Below are positions 30,643-51,870 of a stretch of DNA of 64,000 nt, one piece after another; the first letter of the stretch is position 1, and each line of letters opens with the position of its first letter. The translations under genes were made by a program, and so were the position numbers. The notes beneath the pieces are model-generated. The model ran no database searches and was not told the origin of the DNA. It worked only from the letters and a program-made list of their open reading frames with translations. The stretch comes from Rhizobium sp. L51/94 (lineage in GTDB: Bacteria > Pseudomonadota > Alphaproteobacteria > Rhizobiales > Rhizobiaceae): NCBI RefSeq assembly GCF_019355555.1, contig NZ_CP072142.1, positions 868,001 to 932,000 on the forward strand, written 5' to 3'.

Positions 30643-30694
30643 GAACGTTCATCGGCGGCGGACCATCATAGCCATCAGAAAATAAGCGACGGAA

Positions 30695-30767
30695 GGTTCC
30701 ATAAATGGGCGTTACGCCCCTCGGCAATTACGGGGTCGCGGTTCAGATCCGTTCAAACGCAAGTAGT
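30695..30767 (+). repeat. Diverged dispersed repeat, copy A
   Basis: Two blocks, GGTTCCATAAATGGGCGT (30695-30712) and a GTTC-rich block ending in CGCAAGTAGT (30733-30767), recur in the same order at 51777-51870. The second block differs at several positions and the spacer differs in length (about 20 versus 40 bp). It looks like a relic of a rhizobial intergenic element. Confidence 0.45.
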
Positions 30768-30771
30768 GATC

Positions 30772-31047
30772 TCAGTCTCTTCCAAGCTTCCCTATCAGCA
30801 CACGGTTACCCTCGCGGTTGCCGCAGGTACACCGGAGCTTGCTACCCATGTACCTAAGGTATTGATTCCCATAGCGTTGGATAAATGCGCTTTTGTCCAG
30901 CCAAACAGTCTTCCCGCATATTCCGCATTTGGCTCCCAGCACTTCCCATTCCTTCAAGATCCGGATGGTGTCAAAATCGTAGCCATCGAACTCCCGAAAA
31001 ATTGCAGGTTGAAATGGCGCCAACTCAACGCCGCGACGGTGTCTCAT
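30772..31047 (-). CDS. Small zinc-ribbon-like hypothetical protein
   Basis: A 91-residue protein. Four cysteines are arranged as CGIC ... CTC (KCGICGKTVWLD, then LRCTCGNREG), a zinc-ribbon-like pattern. The ATG at 31047 lies 7 bp behind GGGAGG, which itself is at the end of the upstream gene, so the two are coupled. It is basic and has no membrane segment. I do not recognise it; related short proteins in rhizobia are unannotated. Confidence 0.65.
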   Translation of the reverse strand: MRHRRGVELAPFQPAIFREFDGYDFDTIRILKEWEVLGAKCGICGKTVWLDKSAFIQRYGNQYLRYMGSKLRCTCGNREGNRVLIGKLGRD

Positions 31048-31049
31048 TT

Positions 31050-31343
31050 TCAAGCCTCCCGCTGGAAGTGGGGCTGCCATCCTTGAGCGAAAAAGCTACT
31101 GAGGATGCCGGGCGCCGTCGGAAGCTCGTTCTGTTCGAACGTGGCGTCCTCAATCACGGCGCGAAGCGCAGCGATCGCATCCCGCCCGTAAGCGGCAACC
31201 AAGTCTCTCACCAAGCATTCTTCGGACAAATCAATATCTTCATGGCAACCAATAGCTGACACGTCGGCACTCCCCAAAATGTAAGACACAATCCCAATCG
31301 CGGAATATGTTCCTATTTTGTTCCCTGCCGCTGAGAGAGTCAA
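31050..31343 (-). CDS. Small hypothetical protein
   Basis: A frame of up to 97 residues. The acidic, helical centre (DIDLSEECLVRDLVAAYGRDAIAALRAVIED) looks like real protein sequence. The TTG at 31343 is the first start, but an internal GTG (about residue 28) behind TTGGGGAG has a better ribosome binding site and gives about 70 residues. The stop is 2 bp before the zinc-ribbon gene. The pair is divergent from the Hxs remnant. No function is proposed. Confidence 0.5.
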   Translation of the reverse strand: MTLSAAGNKIGTYSAIGIVSYILGSADVSAIGCHEDIDLSEECLVRDLVAAYGRDAIAALRAVIEDATFEQNELPTAPGILSSFFAQGWQPHFQREA

Positions 31344-31400
31344 TCGGGCCTAAAAAAAATGTTTCGGCACGAACTTTTCCTCGAAGTCCGGCAAGATTTC

Positions 31401-31422
31401 TCAACAACCTGTCAACAACCTG
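31401..31422. repeat. Perfect tandem duplication of TCAACAACCTG
   Basis: The 11-bp unit TCAACAACCTG occurs twice with no spacer, 56 bp before the HxsD-like gene. One helical turn per unit suits two protein molecules on one face of the DNA. Confidence 0.5.
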
Positions 31423-31477
31423 ATAGTGTGCCGCCAAGGGTGGTGACGCGATTGAGCGTCAGGGTTGGGGGTACGTC

Positions 31478-31747
31478 GTGGACGTTCGGAGCGAGGAATA
31501 CGTAAAGCTGGACATCAATGTTCCAACTTCGTTTCTCCAATTTTTGGCAGACACAATAGTCCGTCTCGGGTTCCTGTATCCGGCGGCCCGTTTCTTCGTT
31601 GAAGCAAACCAAGTAGCGATCGAATGCCCCACAGAGGATGCTAACGCGATCCGACGCGATTTAAATTTCGGTTTGTATCGGCAAAAGGTCTACAGCGACA
31701 ATCTTGCGCTTCGGACAAGGGTCATGGAAGGTGTGATGGGCAAATGA
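31478..31747 (+). CDS. HxsD-like protein of a His-Xaa-Ser modification locus
   Basis: An 89-residue protein starting at a GTG. The C-terminal half, DLNFGLYRQKVYSDNLALRTR, follows the HxsD pattern of LN-x-x-LR-x followed by a charged helix ending in an R-x-x-(I/V/M) segment; length is also right. HxsD is a small partner found with the radical-SAM maturases HxsB and HxsC and the repeat peptide HxsA. Its ATGA overlap with the HxsB N-terminus next door is the strongest support. The function of HxsD is not known. Without that neighbour I would call it hypothetical. Confidence 0.6.
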   Translation: MDVRSEEYVKLDINVPTSFLQFLADTIVRLGFLYPAARFFVEANQVAIECPTEDANAIRRDLNFGLYRQKVYSDNLALRTRVMEGVMGK

Positions 31748-31981
31748 CGGTGTTTCCGTTGAGATTCCGGCACGCTGCAGGCGAGGGCTTGTTGTTCGCA
31801 GATGATGCCGGCGCCTACTTCAGGTCTGACGAAGCTTTCCTAGAACGGTATGCGTATGACCAGCTCAGCGCCCACGACGCTCGATTTCTTTCCGAAAATG
31901 GCCATAGCTTCGCGGTAGAGGACGATCTCGATTTCACCGCCTTTGCCTACCGGTGGGCCAGGAGGCTACATGCGCCAACCG
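31744..31981 (+). pseudogene. HxsB radical-SAM maturase, N-terminal remnant cut by IS6 element
   Basis: The first 79 codons read FPLRFRHAAGEGLLFADDAGAYFR and DDLDFTAFAYRWARRL, the N-terminal domain that precedes the radical-SAM CxxxCxxC site in HxsB. The sequence stops resembling HxsB exactly where the IS6 left end begins (31982); the frame then runs on through the IS to 32034. The radical-SAM barrel, HxsC and HxsA are all missing. HxsB together with HxsC is thought to modify His-Xaa-Ser repeats in HxsA. The assignment rests on the N-terminal sequence and the HxsD-like neighbour. Confidence 0.7.
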
Positions 31982-32799
31982 GGCGTCGTAACGTTAACCG
32001 CGCGGCGATTTGCCTGTGCGATTTTGCGGCATGACCCAAGCCGTTCGTGATCCCATTTATCGCCGCCACCGGTTCCCGGCTGAAGTGATTGCCCAGGCCG
32101 TCTGGCTCTATCTTCGTTTTCCGCTCAGTCTGCGGATGGTCGAAGACTTACTGGCGGCGCGCGGGATCATTGTCTCGCACCAGACAGTCCGCCTTTGGGT
32201 CGAGAAATTCGGTCGCCACTTTGCCAATGAAATCCGGCGTCGGTCAGCCGGAAAGCTTGGCGACAAATGGTATCTCGATGAAGTCGTCATCTCCATCGGC
32301 GGCAAGAAGCACTGGCTGTGGCGGGCCGTTGATCAGGATGGCTTTGTTCTCGATGTGCTGGTGCAGAGCCGCCGTAATACCAAGGCAGCCAAACGTCTTA
32401 TGCGAAAGCTTCTCAAAGGACACGGTCACGCACCCCGTGTGATGATCACCGACGAACTCCGATCCTACGGCGCGGCCAAACGCGACATCATGCCCGGCGT
32501 CGAACACCGTTCGCACAAGGGATTGAACAACCGGGCGGAGAATTCACATCAGCCGACACGACGGCGAGAGCGCATCATGAAGGGCTTCAAGTCAGCTCGA
32601 CATCTCCAGCGTTTCGTCTCCATCCATGACCCGGTCGCCAATCTCTTCCACATTCCACGCCACGATATCCCGTCCCACCATCACCGTGAACTGAGAACCG
32701 CAGCCATGCAAATGTGGAGTGAGGTCGCGCGACTGCAAGCTGCGTGAGAGGAAACGGCACTTGCCAATCTTGGCCGCAGCCCTTTAACTTTACGGTGCC
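31982..32799 (+). mobile_element. IS6-family insertion sequence, 818 bp
   Basis: The ends are imperfect inverted repeats: left GGCGTCGTAACGTTAACC and right, read inward, GGCACCGTAAAGTTAAAG, matching at 13 of 18 positions. Size and single transposase gene are those of IS6-family elements. The flanking 8 bp (GCCAACCG on the left, GACAGATG on the right) do not match, so there is no target-site duplication: the element now joins two pieces of DNA that were not neighbours, as happens after IS6-mediated deletion or recombination between copies. Confidence 0.85.
32031..32747 (+). CDS. IS6-family transposase (DDE type)
   Basis: A 238-residue transposase with an N-terminal HTH (about residues 35-60, MVEDLLAARGIIVSHQTVRLWV) and the DDE catalytic domain: Asp83 in WYLDEVVISIGG, Asp141 in MITDELRSYG, and a glutamate in the following KGLNNRAENSH/RRRER segment. 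The ATG at 32031 gives the usual family N-terminus. It is apparently intact, so the element could still move. IS6 elements transpose by copy-in cointegrates and often create adjacent deletions. Confidence 0.95.
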   Translation: MTQAVRDPIYRRHRFPAEVIAQAVWLYLRFPLSLRMVEDLLAARGIIVSHQTVRLWVEKFGRHFANEIRRRSAGKLGDKWYLDEVVISIGGKKHWLWRAVDQDGFVLDVLVQSRRNTKAAKRLMRKLLKGHGHAPRVMITDELRSYGAAKRDIMPGVEHRSHKGLNNRAENSHQPTRRRERIMKGFKSARHLQRFVSIHDPVANLFHIPRHDIPSHHHRELRTAAMQMWSEVARLQAA

Positions 32800-32820
32800 G
32801 ACAGATGTGCAAAAAACGGG

Positions 32821-32897
32821 TCATTGGGTTTTTGAGCAGTTCAGCCGCCACCAGCTACAGTGCCCGCGCCCCGGCGTTCCGGGGCATCACCCAATGA
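32821..32897. repeat. Long-range inverted repeat with inner GC hairpin beside the IS
   Basis: TCATTGGGT (32821-32829) and ACCCAATGA (32889-32897) are perfect complements about 60 bp apart. Between them CCCCGG-CGTT-CCGGGG (32869-32884) forms a compact hairpin. A T run follows at about 32918. It could be a terminator or the end of another element; it starts 22 bp to the right of the IS end. Confidence 0.45.
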
Positions 32898-32965
32898 TTT
32901 GCCCCGCTCCGGCCGGCTTTTTTGTCTCGACAGGGAGGGGCAGCCTTGCTTGCATATATAAGAAC

Positions 32966-32973
32966 TGATATCA
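32966..32973. promoter_or_regulatory. TGATATCA palindrome in toxin-antitoxin promoter region
   Basis: An 8-bp perfect palindrome lies 30 bp before the antitoxin ATG, close to AT-rich TATATAAG. FitA-type antitoxins bind palindromes in their own promoter, so this is a candidate operator. It is short, and the claim is weak. Confidence 0.25.
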
Positions 32974-33002
32974 TTCGCAGCAGTTAAAGGAGGTGCAATA
33001 CC

Positions 33003-33242
33003 ATGGCATCTATCACGATCCGAAACGTGCCCGACGAAGTGCATCGGGCGCTTCGGGTGCGCGCTGCTCAGCACGGTCGCAGCGCCGAGGCGGAAATTCG
33101 CATCATCCTGGAACAGGCCGCCAAGCCGGAAGGCCGAGTCAAACTCGGCAGCCTGCTCACACAAATAGGCCAGGAAGTCGGCGGCTTCGATCTGACGATC
33201 GAGCGAGACCGCACCCCGTCGCCGCCGGTGAGCTTTGAATGA
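33003..33242 (+). CDS. FitA-like ribbon-helix-helix antitoxin
   Basis: A 79-residue protein beginning MASITIRNVPDEVHRALRVRAAQHGRSAEAEIR, the ribbon-helix-helix signature of FitA/VapB-type antitoxins. The rest is the toxin-binding tail. A strong AAAGGAGG site precedes the ATG. It overlaps the toxin gene by ATGA. As in known pairs it should neutralise the toxin and repress the operon. Short and high in GC, it may have arrived with mobile DNA; the IS6 element is just upstream. Confidence 0.93.
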   Translation: MASITIRNVPDEVHRALRVRAAQHGRSAEAEIRIILEQAAKPEGRVKLGSLLTQIGQEVGGFDLTIERDRTPSPPVSFE

Positions 33243-33667
33243 TCCTGCTCGATACCAACGTCATTTCCGAGCCGCTCAAGTCGCAACCCGATCCACGGGT
33301 GGCCGCATGGATCGATACGCAGGCCGTCGAAACCCTCTACGTCGCTGCGATCTCACTCGCGGAATTGCGCTACGGCATCGCCGTGCATCCTGACGGCAAG
33401 AAGAAACAAGCCGTGCAGGAAAAGCTTGATCGGTTGATGCTGCCTTTGTTCCGGGGCCGCATCATGCCGTTCGATGAAGCCGCCGCCCAGGCTTATGCCG
33501 AGCTGCGGGCCGCAGCGGCGAAGAAGGGCAAGGCGATCGGCGATTCAGACGGCTATATCGCTGCCACGGCCAAGGCGAATGGTCTGATGATCGCCACCCG
33601 CGACACCAGCCCTTTCGAGGCCGCCGGCCTGACTGTCATCAATCCGTGGGAGGCATCTAATGGCTGA
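33239..33667 (+). CDS. FitB/VapC-like PIN-domain toxin
   Basis: A 142-residue PIN-domain protein. The acidic residues that hold Mg2+ in these RNases are present: Asp5 in MILLDTNVIS, Glu42 in ISLAELRYG, Asp104 in GDSDGYIAATA and Asp122 in IATRDTSPF. Such toxins cleave RNA, often tRNA, when the antitoxin is lost. The gene is fused by a 4-bp overlap to the antitoxin gene. All catalytic positions are intact, so the pair looks functional. Confidence 0.94.
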   Translation: MILLDTNVISEPLKSQPDPRVAAWIDTQAVETLYVAAISLAELRYGIAVHPDGKKKQAVQEKLDRLMLPLFRGRIMPFDEAAAQAYAELRAAAAKKGKAIGDSDGYIAATAKANGLMIATRDTSPFEAAGLTVINPWEASNG

Positions 33668-33738
33668 AAAACTAACGCCTTCCGATCCAGCGGCGGCATG
33701 ACGCGCAACAGTGCGGCGCAAAGATTCGGGGATAGACC

Positions 33739-34029
33739 ATGATCGATTCGAGCATCATCGGGGTGAAGAATCTCAGGGATGGAGACAACATCAAAGACTT
33801 CTTCAACAGATTCTATAAAAGTGATCTCGCGCGGGACTTTGGGGTCTATCGTCTGTCACTGGACGTTCTTCGAGAAGAAATCCAAAAGCACATCGTAGAA
33901 CACGGCCTTTCGGCGCTGTTCTACAACACCGTAACTTGCGACGAGATAATGCATCCGGGGCTTCACAACGATCAAATCGAGGGGATCGTTCTAGGGATTA
34001 TGCAGAGGTTGGATGGAGTGAAGCACTGA
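33739..34029 (+). CDS. Hypothetical protein
   Basis: A 96-residue acidic protein with a GGGGATAGACC site before its ATG. It is helix-rich and ends with IEGIVLGIMQRLDGVKH. I do not recognise it. It lies at the left edge of a helicase fragment that starts in another frame at about 34020, so this may be a real small gene or the tail of a gene made new by a junction. No function is offered. Confidence 0.45.
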   Translation: MIDSSIIGVKNLRDGDNIKDFFNRFYKSDLARDFGVYRLSLDVLREEIQKHIVEHGLSALFYNTVTCDEIMHPGLHNDQIEGIVLGIMQRLDGVKH

Positions 34030-34301
34030 CATATGAACGCGTCCTGATAGTCCCGACCGCGCTCATCGCTAAGTTCATCGCATCTGGTGCCTATCTAGAG
34101 GCAAATTCCGCTTCCAGCTTCTACGTCGCAGTTACGAGAGCGAAGCGGAGCATTGCGATTGTTCTGGATAAGGCAGGCTCATCTTCGTTGCCTTTCTGGA
34201 ATCCAACGGGGGCGAAACAGGAGGTACAGGCTGACCCCAGAAATAAATGTTCCAGCCATGAAGGACAAAGCGGACGACGTCGGTCTGGATATTCCGATTA
34301 G
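34020..34301 (+). pseudogene. UvrD/Rep-like helicase, C-terminal fragment
   Basis: In one frame the DNA reads LTYERVLIVPTALIAKFI and then SSFYVAVTRAKRSIAIVLD, which is the C-terminal motif V/VI region of UvrD-type superfamily 1 helicases (the VAVTRA(K/R) motif is diagnostic). Everything upstream, including the ATP-binding motifs, is missing. The frame before it (back to 33936) does not look like helicase. It is therefore a remnant of a larger gene, cut on its left side. Confidence 0.7.
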
Positions 34302-34993
34302 GCGCCTTCCAACCATGTAACAAGCGCCCGGTTTACTGCCTCTGGCTGTTCAAGCGTTGACCCGTGACCGCACTTCGGAATGATGACGAGGCTGGAGTCG
34401 GGGATGGCCGCTGCAATTTCCTCTGACAGAAAAGGAGGTGTGATGGAATCACAGTCGCCAACAAGAACGAGGGTTGGAACGGTAATATCAGCGAGATGCG
34501 GACGGCTGTCGGCGCGTCCAATGATTGCCTCTGTCTGCTGTTCAAACCCCTCAACACCAACCGTTAAGCCCATGCGAATATTGACCTCCAGCAAATGCTG
34601 ATCATCTCGATGGGCAGGGTGCAAGAGTATCGACATTACTTGGCTCAAAAGCTCTTCGAAATCGCCACCTTTAGCTTGAGCTAACATGCCGCGCCGCTGC
34701 GCAACTTGCTCTTGGGTGTCCGGCCGAGCAGAAGTATCGAGCAATGCCAGTTTGCTGACTCGCTCCGGTGCCTGACGCATGATCTCCAAGGCGACATATC
34801 CGCCCATCGATAGACCGACGAGTGCAAAGCTCGGCGGCGCGTCTCTCAAAATGTTTGTAGCGATTTCCGGCATGGTTGTCCCGGATAGTGTCGATGCTAC
34901 CGTAACGGGGCCGAACGGCCACAGCGCAGCCATCTGGGGAGCGTAAAGCTCTGCGGAGCACAGCAAACCAGGGATCATAACGATTGGGGTCAT
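34298..34993 (-). CDS. Alpha/beta-fold hydrolase
   Basis: A 231-residue hydrolase, complete with the oxyanion region MIPGLLCSAELY at the N-terminus, nucleophile Ser62 in GLSMGGY, the acid in LVGDCDSITPP and the base His in KCGHGSTLEQP. It belongs to the broad esterase/lactonase group; no substrate is predicted. I use the ATG at 34993, since it brings the core to the usual distance from the start; a longer frame from 35020 exists. Its 3' end overlaps the helicase fragment by 4 bp. Confidence 0.85.
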   Translation of the reverse strand: MTPIVMIPGLLCSAELYAPQMAALWPFGPVTVASTLSGTTMPEIATNILRDAPPSFALVGLSMGGYVALEIMRQAPERVSKLALLDTSARPDTQEQVAQRRGMLAQAKGGDFEELLSQVMSILLHPAHRDDQHLLEVNIRMGLTVGVEGFEQQTEAIIGRADSRPHLADITVPTLVLVGDCDSITPPFLSEEIAAAIPDSSLVIIPKCGHGSTLEQPEAVNRALVTWLEGA

Positions 34994-35332
34994 TGGAAAT
35001 TGGTCTCGTTGAGGAAACATAGCGATACGTTATTTTGTGGTGTTGACAGTTTGTGTCAGCAATCTCCGAAGCCCGCGCGCGTAATGTGGTGATGCTCCCT
35101 TGCGACGAGACAGCCTCTACATTAGCCGGGGTCTTGGCGCGCGGATGGTTAATCGTGGTGGCGTTGTTTGACTGGTCGAGCGGTCCGGCGAAAATCACAG
35201 TCATTCATGGATCCAAATGCAGTAAATTTGTTTAGAAGCCTTGTCGTATCAATGATTTAGAAACTTGATTATCATCCGGCTGCGGTTCGAATGCCATCAA
35301 GGCGTCCAACAGCGCAAAGAGATTATCGAGAT
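34994..35332. other. Intergenic, no gene supported
   Basis: About 340 bp between the hydrolase and the membrane-protein gene, both on the reverse strand. Short overlapping frames only. No recognisable RNA or terminator. Confidence 0.4.
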
Positions 35333-36016
35333 TTAGCTGGCTGCTATGTTTTTGGCCTCTAGGGCGATTGTGACCGCCAGTACAAGCGCGACGACGCTCG
35401 CAGAGACGAAAGCGATAACGAAAGCACCCGTCGCTCTCAGTGTTCCGATTTTGAGATCCTGCATAAGCCATCTTACCTGGGCTTGCGCATACCAGAGTGT
35501 AGCCGACGCGATCGTCAGGACCCCGATGGTGAGGCCCTGTTCGTGGGGCATGAACATGAAGTCGAACGCCAAGCCAATCATGAACGCAAAGGGCGCTGCG
35601 ACATAGCACTGGCTGAAGAACGGTGGACGCAGTGAGTTCCGGGTAATCTTTGTCGACTGATGACGCAGCGCTGTGACTGCCATGCAAAGCGGATAGATCC
35701 CGAAGACCACGCCGCGGGCGATAAGCAGGTTTGATCCCGAGCCCAGCTCCTTGGCTGCAGTCGCCGTGTCATATATGGACGGAAAGGCGGCTGATAGGCC
35801 CTGTGACAGCAGCAGCGTGATCAGAAGAAAGAGAGGTGGGCTCAGTGTATCTTCGTACTGATCCGCAGGCTCGTCAGTGAGTTCAGCATCGGCATAACGC
35901 ATCATGGTGAGGGGTCTGACGACAGAGCGCCACATGGTGAGCGGGTAAAACACTAGCCACGACACCAGCTCATAGAGGAGCTCTTCGAGCGACTTAAGCA
36001 GTTTCATAAAGTCCAA
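35333..36016 (-). CDS. Multi-pass membrane protein of unknown function
   Basis: About 227 residues with four to five hydrophobic segments (around SWLVFYPLTMW, PPLFLLITLLL, GVVFGIYPLCM, PFAFMIGLAFDF and the C-terminal AFVIAFVSASVVALVLAV). The acidic stretch DAELTDEPADQYEDTL sits in the first cytoplasmic loop. A TTG at 36016 lies 5 bp after AGGAGG and is a better start than the ATG at 36043; an ATG at 36007 is also possible. The layout recalls Yip1-like permease-type proteins of rhizobia, without a known role. Confidence 0.65.
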   Translation of the reverse strand: MDFMKLLKSLEELLYELVSWLVFYPLTMWRSVVRPLTMMRYADAELTDEPADQYEDTLSPPLFLLITLLLSQGLSAAFPSIYDTATAAKELGSGSNLLIARGVVFGIYPLCMAVTALRHQSTKITRNSLRPPFFSQCYVAAPFAFMIGLAFDFMFMPHEQGLTIGVLTIASATLWYAQAQVRWLMQDLKIGTLRATGAFVIAFVSASVVALVLAVTIALEAKNIAAS

Positions 36017-36130
36017 GGCGACCTCCTGTGCGGCTATAGTCATGTTGATAGCTCGTCTCGTCGGCTTTGCTAATGCCGCAGATCCAGTCTTTAATTCCCT
36101 CTGCCAATATCAACCCGGAAAGGCTTTGCA

Positions 36131-36298
36131 ATGCGAATGATCGGATATCTGATGTTTGGTCTTGCGGTGTTGGCTGCTGTGCCTGCGGTTGCCGACGAGG
36201 TTAGACGCGCAACCGTGCATTTCTCCAGTGGCTCGTCAGGCTCCACCACTACGTCGAAGCTCAAAGGCTACCAGAGTGTTGAGTGCTCGGTCGGGTAA
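36131..36298 (+). CDS. Short exported protein, probably truncated
   Basis: A 55-residue frame: signal peptide (AVLAAVPAVADE) then VHFSSGSSGSTTTSKLKGYQSVECSVG and a stop. It looks like the start of the small periplasmic proteins that continue with a beta-rich domain after the KGYQSVxY segment; here the frame ends where that domain should begin. Either it is a peptide in its own right or a gene cut short by a premature stop. Confidence 0.45.
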   Translation: MRMIGYLMFGLAVLAAVPAVADEVRRATVHFSSGSSGSTTTSKLKGYQSVECSVG

Positions 36299-36386
36299 CC
36301 GCTGGCTGTTTCAAGCATCCGACAGCGAGCGTGTGCGAGAGTTTCTTGCCAGGTGCCGATGATGGTCGCGTAGGAGCATCCAATTT

Positions 36387-36815
36387 CTAGTCGATCGAGG
36401 GCGGGAATTCATAGGGATCCAGTTGCTGCCCCGAAATTGCCGAAAGTAAATCGCGCAGCAAAGAGATTGATGACAAGCCGCGAGCAAGCGGCCCCTCCGT
36501 CGGATCAAACGGCGAACTGATCTCACGTTCCGCTTCTCTCCCCCAAGTTGTTCCAGAAGGCGCGACGCGCAGCGGGATGGGGCGCCGAGAGCCTTTGTAG
36601 AAATGGGGTATTCGCTGTCGCGTACAATCGATCGAGACAAATAGCATTGGATGACGTGCCTGCAATGCATCCGCCGCCGCCTTCCAATCAGTCACGAGAG
36701 TTCGACCTTTTATCTCTGCGACGATACAGAAATGCTTGGGACAACTATGATCGAAGAGCCAGAAGAAGTCCTCAACGACGCCAAGCGGTCGCGCTACGTC
36801 GAAATCGGTATCCAA
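36387..36815 (-). pseudogene. Condensation-domain (alcohol acetyltransferase-like) protein, truncated
   Basis: A 142-codon frame starting at a TTG. Residues 8-110 read RPLGVVEDFFWLFDHSCPKHF, WKAAADALQARHPML and ISSPFDPTEGPLARG, the N-terminal part of an NRPS-condensation-like/AATase acyltransferase (normally 400 or more residues). After PLARG the resemblance ends and LSSISLLRDLLSAISG follows, which could be a distant C-terminal piece joined by an internal deletion. The active-site HHxxxDG is missing, so it cannot be active. Confidence 0.6.
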
Positions 36816-37037
36816 GACGCTATCCCTTTCATTCTCGTCATCGGATTCTTATTGGCTGTAAGAAAGTGCTTGGATTGCAGTTGACCCAGTGAAGCCTCCG
36901 CCGAAACGCGACCACGTTTTGGACATCGCGCCTGCTACAGCCCCGCCACCATGGCGCGGCGATCACGAATCACTGTGGTGGAGACGCTGCTCGCTCACTG
37001 CCGTGCCTGACAGCGCTCCTGAGTAATCGCCCAGTCT

Positions 37038-37865
37038 TCAGTCGGTGGCATTCCAGTCACACGCAAACGGGGGATTGACGAAGCGTTGGTCCTTGGGGAG
37101 GGAGGCTATCAAAGAGAGGTCTTCGTCATCCAGCCGGATCGATGCCGCCGCGAGATTGGCCTTTTGGGTCTCGGTTCGTCCAGCCTTCGGGATCGCGATC
37201 ACCCCGTCCTGGCCAAGGAGCCAGGCGATAGCAACTTGCGACGCGCTAACATTGTGTTTCCGGCCAATCGACTGCAGGGTCGGATCGCTCGCCGCGCGGC
37301 CCTGCGCCAAAGGGGCATAAGCGGTCAGCGCAATTCCCTTGGCGCGCAGGTACTGAAGCATGGGCGCCTGCGACAGATACGGATGGTACTCGATTTGATG
37401 AACCGCGATCGGAACCTGTATGTCTTCCACAACGTGCCGGATCATTGGCATGTTGAAATTGCACACGCCGATTGCTCTCGCGAAGCCATGTTCACGAAGA
37501 CGGCCCATGGCAGTCAGGGTCGCCGCAATGTCCATGTCCGCCGACGGCCAATGCACGAGAAAAAGATCGACATAGTCCATCTTCAGCTTTTCGAGGCTAG
37601 TCGCGAAGGCTCGCTGCAAAGCACCCGGCGCCAGTTGATCGTGCCAAACCTTGGTCGTGACGAAGAGTTCGCGGCGATGAATACCTGAGCCTGCAATCGC
37701 CGTACCGACCGCCGCCTCATTTTCATACATTGCCGCGGTATCAATATGCCGATATCCGAGCGAAAGCGCGCTTTCCACCGCCGGTTGCGCGCCGGCACCC
37801 GGCATCCGGAACGTTCCGAGGCCAAGACGAGGTATCGTCACACCTTGCGTTTCGATCGTGTCCAT
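37038..37865 (-). CDS. Aldo/keto reductase, DkgB-like
   Basis: A 275-residue NADPH-dependent reductase. The catalytic tetrad is complete: Asp42, Tyr47 (YRHIDTAAMYENE), Lys72 (VTTKVWHD) and His105 (FLVHWPSA). The C-terminal AIPKAGRTETQ segment is the NADPH-phosphate-binding region. It resembles 2,5-diketo-D-gluconate and methylglyoxal reductases. The ATG at 37865 follows GGAAGG. It is the last gene of a reverse operon with an NmrA-like protein and a serine hydrolase, all divergent from a LysR gene. Confidence 0.93.
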   Translation of the reverse strand: MDTIETQGVTIPRLGLGTFRMPGAGAQPAVESALSLGYRHIDTAAMYENEAAVGTAIAGSGIHRRELFVTTKVWHDQLAPGALQRAFATSLEKLKMDYVDLFLVHWPSADMDIAATLTAMGRLREHGFARAIGVCNFNMPMIRHVVEDIQVPIAVHQIEYHPYLSQAPMLQYLRAKGIALTAYAPLAQGRAASDPTLQSIGRKHNVSASQVAIAWLLGQDGVIAIPKAGRTETQKANLAAASIRLDDEDLSLIASLPKDQRFVNPPFACDWNATD

Positions 37866-37936
37866 TGGATATTTTCCTTCCACAACAACAAAGCTGGAGA
37901 TGCAGGTGGGCGCCCCCCTGCATCCTAATCGTTCGA

Positions 37937-38818
37937 TCAGGCGCGATCGTCTGTGTTGTCACCGGCCACGAGTGCGTCCACGACCTGCTGCAGCGAGGTG
38001 TTTCCCTTTTCCGCCAGGCGACCGCTGTCCTTGAACTCGATCCAGCTTTCATTGAAGCCGTCGAGCATGCGAATACGCGGCGTCGGGTTCTTCATCCCCT
38101 GCGAGCGGAACAGCTCCTCCCAAGTTGCGCGGTTGACAATTTCGACCTTCACCGGCCTGTTGAGCGCCACTGCGAAGGCTTGCGCGAGGTCATCTGGCGA
38201 TACCCGTTGAGCAGCCTCCAACTCGACGACGCGTTTTCCGGTCCAATCCTGCTGGATCAGCTCTGCCGCCAGGATGCCGATGTCCTTCGTTGCGATCATC
38301 GGGAACTTTTTGTCCGCGGGCTGCAGGAAGCTGTGAAGAATGCCAGTGTCGCGGGCCGTGCCTAAGTCCCAAAGTGCATTTTCCATGAACCATGCGGGTC
38401 GGAGGAAGGTGACAGGCAGGTCAAGCTCGTTAAGGGCATTTTCCAGCATCGTGCGCTGGGACAGCAGATTGTCCTCTTTCGCGTCTGCGCCGATCGTCGA
38501 CAGGCAGAGGACCTTTTTCGGGCGTGCGGTCTTTAGAGCGGCGACGACACTGTCGATCACCTTTTGCGCCTCGGGATAGCCAGGCTCAGGGTCGAACTCG
38601 GACGGCGGAAGAATGAAGACGGCCTCAGTGCCGGCAAAGGCCGCCGAAAGCGCCTTTCCGTCTTCCATCTCGGCTAGAGCGACATCGCAGCCGAGAGCGG
38701 CCCACGAAGTGCCCTTGGCCTGATCGCGAACGATCGCACGGACGGCTTTGCCGTTGGCGAGCAGAGTCCGCGCAAGAGCGCCGCCGACTTTGCCGGTGAT
38801 TCCAGTGATTGCGTACAT
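37937..38818 (-). CDS. NmrA-like NAD(P)-binding protein
   Basis: A 293-residue atypical short-chain dehydrogenase. The N-terminal TGITGKVGGALARTLLANG binds NAD(P), and the middle region FLRPAWFMEN and AAELIQQDWTGKRVVELEA fits the NmrA/NAD(P)H:quinone-type branch. The SDR catalytic YxxxK is not present, so it may be a redox sensor or an NADPH-dependent reductase of quinones. It lies between the serine hydrolase and the aldo/keto reductase, with 30 and 71 bp gaps. Confidence 0.88.
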   Translation of the reverse strand: MYAITGITGKVGGALARTLLANGKAVRAIVRDQAKGTSWAALGCDVALAEMEDGKALSAAFAGTEAVFILPPSEFDPEPGYPEAQKVIDSVVAALKTARPKKVLCLSTIGADAKEDNLLSQRTMLENALNELDLPVTFLRPAWFMENALWDLGTARDTGILHSFLQPADKKFPMIATKDIGILAAELIQQDWTGKRVVELEAAQRVSPDDLAQAFAVALNRPVKVEIVNRATWEELFRSQGMKNPTPRIRMLDGFNESWIEFKDSGRLAEKGNTSLQQVVDALVAGDNTDDRA

Positions 38819-38848
38819 GTCTGATTTTCCATTCAGAAAGAGGAGAGA

Positions 38849-40129
38849 TTAAGCGAGCCCGTCATAGAGCCCGCGTTCGAAGTCGCCGTAGAGAGCAACG
38901 ACGCGGTCGTCATAGAAAGGAAGAAGCTGCGTAAAGAGGGACCCAGTCACCCGGCGAACCGGATCAATCCAGAAGTAGCAATTGAGTAGCCCAGCCCAGG
39001 ATGCACTGCCTGCGGAGCGGCCGTGTGGCCCAGCCTCAGTGTTGATGTCGAAAGAGTAGCCCCATTTGTGCTTCTGATCCGGGAACTGATCGAAGCTGTT
39101 CGAATAGGCCGGTGCGGCCGACTCCATCTTGCGAACATTCAGATCCCCGATCTGGTTCTGCATCATCATCGCGACGGTCTCAGGCTTGAGGATCTGAACC
39201 CCGTTCAACTTGCCTCCATGGAGCAATGCCTGAAGGAGCATCATGTAGTCTTGCGGGGTGCTGTATGCGCCGCCACCGCCCATGAAAAATTCCGGCCTCT
39301 GAGGCATCTCGAACGGCATTGCTTTCAAGCCGCCATCAGTCTCTCTGCTGAAACATGTCGCGACACGGCGCTTCTGCTCGCTGCTGATCAGAAATCCCGA
39401 ATCCTTCATTCCGAGAGGCGCAAAAATGTTCTCCCGGAAATAGACTTCCAACGACTGATCGCTGACAGCTTCGACCAGCTTACCAGTCCAGTCCATGCTG
39501 ATGCCGTACTGCCATCGTTCCCCCGGCTCGAATTCGAGCGGCACATTGAAGGCGGCGTTCTGGCAGGTTGCGATATCGGGTAAACCGGTGGCGGTCTCGT
39601 AGCGCACTATCACATCGCTCCAGTTCGCATAGGTGTAGCCGGAGGTATGCGTCAGAAGGTGATGAACCTTGATTGAGTTCTTGGCGGAACGCAGCTGTGG
39701 CTGACCGTTGGCATCAAAACCTACCAGAATTTTGGGTGCAGCAAGCTGCGGCAGGTATTTCGATGCGTCATCATCCAGCTTGAGGCGGCCCTGCTCAACC
39801 AGCTGCATGCATGCTGTCGCTGTGATCGCCTTCGTCATCGACAAAAGCCAAAAGACCGTGTCAGGCCGCATTGCGGTACCGGTGTCCACGTTTGCCTTGC
39901 CGAAAAGGCCTTCGTAGACGATTCCCTTCTGCGTTGCAGCCATAGCGACCGCACCAGCGACCGTGCGGTCATTGACTGCCTTCTCTATCGCGGCATCGAT
40001 CGAGTTAAACTTCGCATTTTTGAGGCGCGGGCTTTGGCTGGCCGCCTGAACAGCGCTTGCCCCAAGACATGCCGCGGCGGCGGCCATGGTGCCGCGTGTC
40101 AGCACCGCTCTTCTCGTGATCTCACTCAT
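38849..40129 (-). CDS. Exported serine hydrolase, class C beta-lactamase/esterase family
   Basis: A 426-residue protein with an N-terminal ITRRAVLTRGTMAAAAACLG region that looks like a Tat signal (twin arginine, then hydrophobic). The SxxK nucleophile is S97-M-T-K100 and the second motif is the YGIS in ERWQYGISMDW. This places it in the penicillin-binding-protein-like/EstB esterase group rather than true beta-lactamases. It is periplasmic. The first gene of the LysR-linked operon. Confidence 0.87.
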   Translation of the reverse strand: MSEITRRAVLTRGTMAAAAACLGASAVQAASQSPRLKNAKFNSIDAAIEKAVNDRTVAGAVAMAATQKGIVYEGLFGKANVDTGTAMRPDTVFWLLSMTKAITATACMQLVEQGRLKLDDDASKYLPQLAAPKILVGFDANGQPQLRSAKNSIKVHHLLTHTSGYTYANWSDVIVRYETATGLPDIATCQNAAFNVPLEFEPGERWQYGISMDWTGKLVEAVSDQSLEVYFRENIFAPLGMKDSGFLISSEQKRRVATCFSRETDGGLKAMPFEMPQRPEFFMGGGGAYSTPQDYMMLLQALLHGGKLNGVQILKPETVAMMMQNQIGDLNVRKMESAAPAYSNSFDQFPDQKHKWGYSFDINTEAGPHGRSAGSASWAGLLNCYFWIDPVRRVTGSLFTQLLPFYDDRVVALYGDFERGLYDGLA

Positions 40130-40239
40130 GATTGTTTACCTTGAATCCAGACGGATCGCGGGTCTGGTAAACCGCTCGCCTTCGAAAGGCTGACGGCGAA
40201 TACCTACCAACAGCCGAGCCATGCTAAAAGATCATAATA

Positions 40240-40256
40240 GTCATATTCAAAATGAC
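40240..40256. promoter_or_regulatory. Candidate LysR site GTCAT-N7-ATGAC
   Basis: A perfect 5-bp inverted repeat with 7 central bases lies between the divergent LysR gene and the serine hydrolase gene, in an AT-rich stretch. Such spacing is compatible with a LysR-family T-N11-A box. It is a candidate only. Confidence 0.35.
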
Positions 40257-40301
40257 AAAAAATCACTGTTATTCGTTTTCCCGGAATGCGAAAGCTTTGT
40301 C

Positions 40302-41216
40302 ATGAGGTTCGACGGACGTCTTCTTACTGGGGTAAGTGTATTCTTGGCAGTTGCCGACGCCGGCAATTTTGCCAAGGCCGCGGACGTATTGGGAGTGACC
40401 CCTTCCGGCATCAGCCGAGCAATCGGACGACTGGAAACAAGGATGGGCGTGCGTCTCTTCGACCGCACACCCCGTTCTGTCGCGCTGACCGAAGAGGGTC
40501 GTTTGTTTCGTCTACAAGCGGTGCCGCTCGTGGCGGGCCTGGAAGAAGCGGCTGCGACCGCCTCGGGATCGGCAGCAGCGGTCGGCGGGAGGCTGCGCGT
40601 ATCGATCGACCCTTGGTTTGCAAGGATGGTATTAGCGCCCCAGCTTCCGCGGTTCACCGAGAAATATCCGGATCTGAAAATCGATCTTATGACGACGAAC
40701 GCCCGTGACGACATGATGAGCGGGTTCGATGTGGCCGTCCGATTTGGATCGACCAATGCCGGGTCACTCATCGCAAGAAAGCTTCTGGATATCCGCGTCA
40801 TCACGTGCGCGGCCCCCGCCTATCTCGAGAAATTCGGCGAGCCGGTCCGGCCGGAGGAGATAGGTGGACACGAAGTTATTCTGTTCCGAGACCCCGAGAC
40901 CGGCCGAGCTTTCCCTTGGGAATTTCATCGAGGTGGTGAAGTTGTCAGCGTAAAAGTCGTCGGCAGGATAATTTTTGACGACCCATCCGCCGCGATCGCC
41001 GCCTGCATTGCCGGCCAAGGTATCTTTCAGAGCCTGGAGATCGGTTTGGATCCCTGGCTGAAAGGCGGCGGACTAAGACAAATTCTCAAAGACTGGTCGG
41101 ACGAACATTATCCCCTCTACGCGTACCATCCAGCGCGCCATCTGCCGCCGGCAAAGGTCAGAGCTTTCCTCGATTTTGTGCAGCAGGTCGCCAAGGAGAA
41201 AGCGCGCGACGGCTGA
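40302..41216 (+). CDS. LysR family regulator
   Basis: A 304-residue LysR-type regulator. The winged HTH covers residues 10-65 (FLAVADAGNFAKAADVLGVTPSGISRAIGRLE) and the C-terminal two-lobe co-inducer domain follows. It is of the CrgA/DsdC-like branch that often controls adjacent oxidoreductases. Divergent from the serine hydrolase-NmrA-aldo/keto reductase operon, it is the likely regulator of it. The start chosen is the ATG at 40302; the frame extends to 40221. Confidence 0.9.
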   Translation: MRFDGRLLTGVSVFLAVADAGNFAKAADVLGVTPSGISRAIGRLETRMGVRLFDRTPRSVALTEEGRLFRLQAVPLVAGLEEAAATASGSAAAVGGRLRVSIDPWFARMVLAPQLPRFTEKYPDLKIDLMTTNARDDMMSGFDVAVRFGSTNAGSLIARKLLDIRVITCAAPAYLEKFGEPVRPEEIGGHEVILFRDPETGRAFPWEFHRGGEVVSVKVVGRIIFDDPSAAIAACIAGQGIFQSLEIGLDPWLKGGGLRQILKDWSDEHYPLYAYHPARHLPPAKVRAFLDFVQQVAKEKARDG

Positions 41217-41552
41217 GCGAAAGAAGATGATTGCGGGGGCTGTTAGAGAAATCCTTGTTTTTGCACAACACGGTGCGGTCAGAGCTGCGGACCCTGATTT
41301 TCACGCAGATGAATTGAAATATTTGCCCGGGGATACGCAGCTGTGGCCACATACGGCGTATGCGGCGCGGCGTTGGCAACGGTTCAGTTCAGTACGGCAC
41401 TATCCTTAAGTCGGGGTTTTTTAGTCACTGGAAGGGTCTTCAGTCTCTTAAATCGCCGAGAATTGAAAAACGCGGTTCGATACCTTTTAAGGCGATGAGA
41501 GGCCCCGAAAGCGGCCTCCCATTTCACGAAGTTAATCAGACGAGCGCCGTCG
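41217..41552. other. Intergenic, no gene supported
   Basis: About 335 bp between the end of the LysR gene and the SDR remnant. Only short overlapping frames are open and nothing is recognised. Confidence 0.4.
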
Positions 41553-51776: not shown

Positions 51777-51870
51777 GGTTTCATAAATGGGCGTAGCTTA
51801 CTCCGTTCATGTTGCTTGCCTTTTTATTTTCTGCGGGTCGGCAGTTCGTATCTGTTCAAGCGCAAGTAGT
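51777..51870 (+). repeat. Diverged dispersed repeat, copy B
   Basis: GGTTTCATAAATGGGCGT (51777-51794) and a block ending GCGCAAGTAGT up to 51870 repeat the order found at 30695-30767. The spacer here is about 40 bp and T-rich. The match is by eye. Confidence 0.45.

Follow-up and report, generated by a model that had tools for sequence, protein, structure and literature searches.

A 64,000-nucleotide stretch of contig 2 of Rhizobium sp. L51/94 (C2:868001-932000, hereafter the window) carries two short overlapping reading frames at 31478-31981 that had been interpreted as what is left of a His-Xaa-Ser (Hxs) peptide-modification system cut short by an IS6-family element. The locus raises two questions: whether these frames do derive from an Hxs operon and, if so, where the rest of that operon lies in the genome (6.05 Mb in five contigs, 99.84% complete). 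The His-Xaa-Ser system was reportedly defined by Haft and Basu in 2011 and is represented by NCBIfam models TIGR03976-TIGR03979. HxsB and HxsC are radical-SAM enzymes; to judge from the parts, their target would be the His-Xaa-Ser repeats of HxsA, and HxsD may be a small partner acting as a scaffold or in substrate hand-over. The features of the region are collected in Table 1.

Table 1. Features at and around the Hxs junction (window coordinates)
Feature	Position	Strand	Evidence or remarks
Homology to R. tumorigenes pRt1078 hxs locus	30740..31979		blastn 86%
102-aa ORF with CxxC pairs, upstream of hxsD	30772..31080	-	79% to R. tumorigenes counterpart; no NCBIfam or Pfam match
97-aa ORF upstream of hxsD	31050..31343	-	89% identity to R. 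tumorigenes counterpart; no NCBIfam or Pfam match
hxsD, divergent alphaproteobacterial branch	31478..31747	+	GTG start, 89 aa, frame intact
hxsB, first 79 codons only	31744..31980	+	TIGR03978 18.6 bits, alignment, invariant columns
IS6-family element cutting hxsB short	31982..32799	+	NF033587 225.7 bits; transposase frame end 32747
Sequence right of the IS: FitA-like RHH and PIN toxin-antitoxin pair and another ORF, not hxs	32800..34026		C3 copy 99.6%

Our analysis supports the identification of 31478-31981 as a real remnant of an Hxs locus. The TGA that ends the first frame and the ATG at 31744 that opens the HxsB frame share the tetranucleotide ATGA; the ORFs and the alignment confirm the overlap of an HxsD-like gene with the first 79 codons of HxsB on which the original prediction was built. 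The boundaries given there hold, as does the statement that HxsB ends at the edge of the IS6 element: homology continues to T79 (31978-31980) and is followed by the left end of the IS. The homologous segment itself begins further left, at about 30740, and takes in two more small ORFs (97 and 102 aa), neither of which has an NCBIfam or Pfam match; Pfam and PHROG scans of the small ORFs gave no useful result.

The counterpart of this segment lies on megaplasmid pRt1078 of R. tumorigenes 1078 (NZ_CP117256.1), in an intact operon of the order hxsD-hxsB-hxsC-hxsA. The last three genes are annotated as such (WP_111219163.1, WP_111219161.1, and WP_111219159.1) and a "hypothetical protein" occupies the place of hxsD. 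As in the NCBIfam-defined system, HxsB (421.5 bits, cut-off 370), HxsC (316.1, cut-off 267.9), and HxsA (182.3, cut-off 121.65) of R. tumorigenes pass their cut-offs, and with the DNA identity (86.2% over 1246 blastn columns) this establishes common descent of the window segment with an intact Hxs operon and bears out its reading as an Hxs remnant. The two loci agree in gene order, in the hxsD/hxsB overlap, and in the two upstream ORFs; the operon of R. tumorigenes is intact, whereas the window copy stops at hxsB codon 79 against the IS6 element. Besides its five His-Xaa-Ser units, four of which are His-Ala-Ser, HxsA of the intact operon carries a peptidoglycan-binding domain (45.2 bits); it is apparently exported, its N-terminus being signal-like by eye. 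It is long and encoded at the 3′ end of the operon, in contrast to several distant loci, in which a short repeat protein is encoded upstream of hxsD. The segment may be a mosaic, for which 86% is only an average, since its identity to R. tumorigenes varies from 75 to 97% when taken per 100 bases (79% for hxsD, 85% for the hxsB piece, and 93.5% for the 97-aa ORF).

A short repeat with the core TTCAARCGCAAGTAGT is found at the left edge of the remnant (30733-30825); it recurs at 51835-51870 and, with a mismatch, at C2:853375. To the left lies a sugar/inositol-catabolism region (7000-30690), for which no plasmid record reaches 80% coverage in one place. Since, in addition, collinearity with the genome of R. 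rhododendri rho-6.2 starts only at 30693, the remnant marks an edge of a strain-variable region.

The HxsB piece matches positions 2-80 of TIGR03978 at 18.6 bits (E = 0.0006), against a cut-off of 370 bits that a piece of 79 codons could hardly reach. The CxxxCxxC radical-SAM motif (C92, C96, and C99, invariant in eight full HxsB proteins) is missing from this piece, which ends at residue 79, and from a second HxsB piece on contig 5 (C5, described below), which starts near residue 335 and also scores below the cut-off. Because neither piece passes, the locus is taken as a remnant and not as a working member of the family. Scoring both frames with the HxsB and HxsD models had been proposed as the check; HxsB is recognized, though far below its cut-off, and the small upstream ORF has no match to the HxsD model (TIGR03976). 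The curated models alone are insufficient both for a 79-codon piece and for this kind of HxsD.

Taken literally, the missing HxsD match counts against the original prediction, which had named that outcome as contrary evidence; yet 11 rhizobial relatives of the protein, encoded upstream of full-length HxsB, fail in the same way. At E <= 10, none of these 12 proteins (the window protein and its 11 relatives) matches TIGR03976, and across 148 genomes of the genus there is no match above the cut-off (matches below it occur in six, best E 0.3). Because none of the 11 relatives directly upstream of full-length HxsB is recognized, we take TIGR03976 to lack the alphaproteobacterial HxsD branch, in which respect this branch departs from the system as NCBIfam defines it. 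A search of 150 genomes (the strain and its relatives) with the window protein gave matches in 15. Fourteen genomes besides this one thus carry a homologue, and in all 12 that were examined the gene that follows the match directly encodes an HxsB of 468-469 aa (at locus L021 the neighbour was seen only in the 150-genome search). The protein is 73% identical to the one encoded upstream of the intact hxsB of R. tumorigenes.

Further HxsD proteins were picked by eye from the best 80 of 353 HxsB loci; the remaining 31 of the 80, many of them sphingomonad, were left out of the comparison. All 31 HxsD proteins from distant loci match TIGR03976, as against one of 19, weakly, in a set consisting of 18 mostly alphaproteobacterial proteins and the window protein. 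One branch member, from a Bdellovibrionales metagenome-assembled genome (L077), reaches 24.1 bits (E 3.6e-5; cut-off 50). Alignment of the branch profile with the canonical profile by hhalign is weak (probability 4%, E 0.01) and collinear over 81 columns; with the profiles swapped the values are 2.3%, E 0.02, and score 17.36. In the unswapped comparison, the only one for which shuffles were run, the score of 18.96 exceeds those of all 300 column shuffles (mean 9.5, maximum 17.45) and of the reversed alignment (11.76). The AlphaFold2 models of the window protein (E8-14, H17-33, E38-42, E45-51, and H52-87; pLDDT 91.3) and of a canonical HxsD (E4-10, H16-28, E30-37, E40-47, and H53-93; pLDDT 91.1) share a predicted beta-alpha-beta-beta-alpha order. 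Foldseek gives weak matches for both: the window protein comes closest to a KH domain (E 0.026) and the canonical one to Pcc1 (E 0.005). Several targets are common to the two lists, and no functional conclusion was drawn from them.

That the small gene is an unrelated ORF, with the HxsB fragment as the only Hxs sequence present, would agree with the lack of any meaningful NCBIfam, Pfam, or PHROG match (best PHROG E 0.023) and with the failure of TIGR03976 throughout the genus. Its position directly upstream of full-length HxsB in all 12 genomes examined, the L077 match, the profile score above every shuffle, and the common order of predicted elements make this highly unlikely. The small gene is HxsD by position, by its weak collinear profile match, and by predicted fold, and we assign the window protein and canonical HxsD to a single family, in which the alphaproteobacterial proteins form a divergent branch. 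The comparison thus provides a usable sketch of a branch left as "hypothetical protein" in the R. tumorigenes annotation.

IS6-family elements have terminal inverted repeats, are about 0.8 kb long, and on simple insertion generate an 8-bp target duplication. The element in the window (~31982-32799, 818 bp) has imperfect inverted ends (ggcgtcgtaacgttaacc and ggcaccgtaaagttaaa) and encodes a transposase that belongs to the family (32028-32744 scored; NF033587 cut-off 125 bits). No 8-bp target duplication surrounds it: the left flank reads gccaaccg and the right gacagatg, a difference such as would be seen after a rearrangement. Because the duplication is absent, the IS6-family activity that severed the operon at hxsB codon 79 was probably a replicative or adjacent-deletion event. 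A DNA search of the genome found no second near-identical copy (next best 75% over ~490 bases), so there is no sister element to document a replicative event. The C3 copy of the toxin-antitoxin stretch to the right has a different sequence on its left, where the IS stands in the window.

The rest of the system had been expected to be either gone or elsewhere in the genome; both proved to be the case. A genome-wide profile search located the missing HxsB C-terminus on C5 (TIGR03978, model 333-466; 122.4 bits in this search and 124.4 bits in another), together with an intact hxsC (318.7 bits) and an intact hxsA (HSSHASHASHASHAS, His-Xaa-Ser repeats, 174.3 bits), both above their cut-offs; the single HxsC match of the genome is this one, and the hxsB piece in the window runs straight into the IS6 element. 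Identity of the C5 locus (L024) to R. tumorigenes is 95% on both sides of a joint, up to L024 9720 and onward from 9717; the ~1,956 bases between are gone, a single clean deletion that removed hxsD, hxsB residues 1 to ~335, and the two small upstream ORFs. No IS was seen at the C5 joint.

TIGR03978 has seven matches in the genome (the two HxsB pieces, one YhhB, one HxsC, and three on C1 of at most 24.1 bits); matches below the cut-off are also seen in all 14 control genomes. When the R. tumorigenes stretch reaching from hxsB past the upstream ORFs was searched against the genome as DNA, it matched at four sites: the window piece, the sequence on either side of the C5 gap, and a repeat of 80 bp at C2:853375. 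Neither the profile nor the DNA search found the HxsB core in the genome. The strain retains intact D, C, and A genes, with HxsB residues 80 to ~335 in neither locus.

The complementary ends of the two loci (D and B residues 1-79 in the window; B from ~335 to 469, C, and A on C5) suggest halves of one operon, split by IS6 and moved between replicons. IS6 elements are able to carry DNA between replicons, and the 97-aa ORF of the window is nearly as close to R. tumorigenes as is the C5 locus. The remaining identities are difficult to reconcile with a single origin, since the hxsB end and hxsC of C5 agree with R. tumorigenes at 1421 of 1497 positions (95%), well above window hxsD and the hxsB piece, and the 48 bases still common to the window and C5 copies are 83% identical. 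R. rhododendri rho-6.2, a genome of the same species, contains window positions 30693-41456 at 99.6%, with the IS6 junction included (one base more in the hxsB piece, two fewer in the transposase, hxsD identical); the C5-type locus, including its hxsC and hxsA, was not found there. With no IS at the C5 joint and a middle part of HxsB that neither piece contains, the split-operon idea was rejected as extremely improbable. The C5 locus and the window piece are probably of different descent and not halves of one locus. According to PMC10064268, a genome paper on this clade, the 1.53-Mb replicon of R. rhododendri arose as a cointegrant in which a pRt1078-like megaplasmid is joined with two chromids, so a rearranged remnant in it would be unsurprising.

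We are confident that this R. rhododendri genome holds, in the window, a dead piece of an Hxs locus of the plasmid type and, on C5, a separately damaged locus. IS6-family activity would have cut the window operon, and the C5 locus, of other descent, would have lost hxsD and the first ~335 residues of HxsB in one deletion. The surviving genes and the breaks are plain, whereas the order of events can be given only as a likely one. From gene content, this strain very probably has no working Hxs system: without the HxsB core, the HxsA repeats should no longer be modified, although another radical-SAM enzyme could in principle take the place of HxsB. Against a dead system, hxsD and the C5 genes hxsC and hxsA are intact and have not decayed. 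The passages of PMC9062424 and PMC8446631 contain no test of Hxs function.

The dN/dS values relative to R. tumorigenes are 0.17 for C5 hxsC and 0.13 for C5 hxsA, in line with genes that have not decayed, and 0.23 (hxsD), 0.21 (hxsB piece), 0.66 (97-aa ORF), and 0.35 (102-aa ORF); those of the window genes reflect mostly the time before the break and are no evidence of present selection. Synonymous divergence varies widely between the window parts, from 0.09 to 0.65. A retained function for HxsD, with or without the HxsB N-terminus and for example as a binding partner of C5 HxsC or HxsA, would accord with the identical hxsD in rho-6.2, with intact D, C, and A genes somewhere in the genome, and with a remnant of the same type in another genome (G426, below). 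At 99.6% identity only about one difference is expected in hxsD, so its identity says little; rho-6.2 also carries the one-base indel in its hxsB piece and yielded neither C5-type hxsC nor hxsA. We consider such a function very unlikely and retain the reading of two dead or damaged loci.

Among 394 genomes of the family sample, HxsB relatives (E <= 1e-20) occur in 14 and HxsC in 14, in 15 genomes together; in nine of these HxsB is covered nearly end to end. Matches elsewhere span residues 68-467 (G226) or 38-455 (the divergent G266), or begin near a contig end (G445). The Hxs locus is broken in three sampled genomes: this strain, G426, and G487. G426 has an hxsD-like ORF, so named by position as it has no model match, and an hxsB frame whose homology extends no further than residue ~123-127. 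In G487 (L165), as in the window, an IS6-family element (285.7 bits, cut-off 125) adjoins a broken hxs gene; what survives there, unlike in the window, is the 3′ part (intact hxsA and an 88-codon end of hxsC), and the two elements differ in the sequence of their ends. The annotation of Rhizobium sp. CCGE532 places an IS256 transposase where hxsB would be expected. Of 415 plasmid records with an HxsB relative, 394 match 80% or more of the query at a single place; 316 come from Klebsiella.

HxsB is thus wholly or partly lost in the window, on C5, in G426, in G487, and, by annotation, in CCGE532. This recurrence might indicate that hxsB is the preferred casualty of Hxs loci, with HxsD alone or HxsC plus HxsA kept for an HxsB-free role. 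The cases are few, no gene of the operon is longer than hxsB, G487 also lost most of hxsC, and large deletions alone would yield such a pattern; we give the idea very little credence. The case does demonstrate that one genome can carry two independently broken Hxs copies that jointly lack only the middle of HxsB. The junction in the window is settled as Hxs debris, an ordinary remnant of a known kind; the additions made here are the whereabouts of the rest and an HxsD branch missed by the curated model. Hxs chemistry and its role can be tested in an intact symbiont operon rather than in the window remnant; the bean symbiont Rhizobium etli CFN 42, for example, has annotated hxsB, hxsC, and hxsA genes on NC_007762.

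Several neighbors of the related loci were also noted. A conserved protein of ~400 aa is encoded directly downstream of hxsA on C5 (L024 6334-7578) and in R. tumorigenes (L025 6331-7539); a 46% homologue occupies the corresponding position in L026, and the one in L027 is split. The C5 copy has no NCBIfam match and the R. tumorigenes copy no Pfam match, and the protein is possibly an unrecognized Hxs partner. A second peptide system of the cyclophane type, yhhA/yhhB, adjoins the Hxs operon of R. tumorigenes (L025 14377-16527 and 16538-16792); on C5, yhhB is broken by an IS21-type istA/istB element (L024 13565-17224). Genes for JAB-domain and ThiF-type (E1-like) proteins, resembling pairs found in anti-phage systems, adjoin the RiPP island of C5 (L024 17829-19498). 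A cluster adjoining the C5 Hxs locus (L024 935-6414) comprises genes for a radical-SAM protein, a TIGR00730 protein, and an isopentenyl transferase, as well as idi; those parts of it that match the 381,845-bp R. rhododendri replicon, called pTi6.2 in PMC10064268, do so at 99.7% identity.
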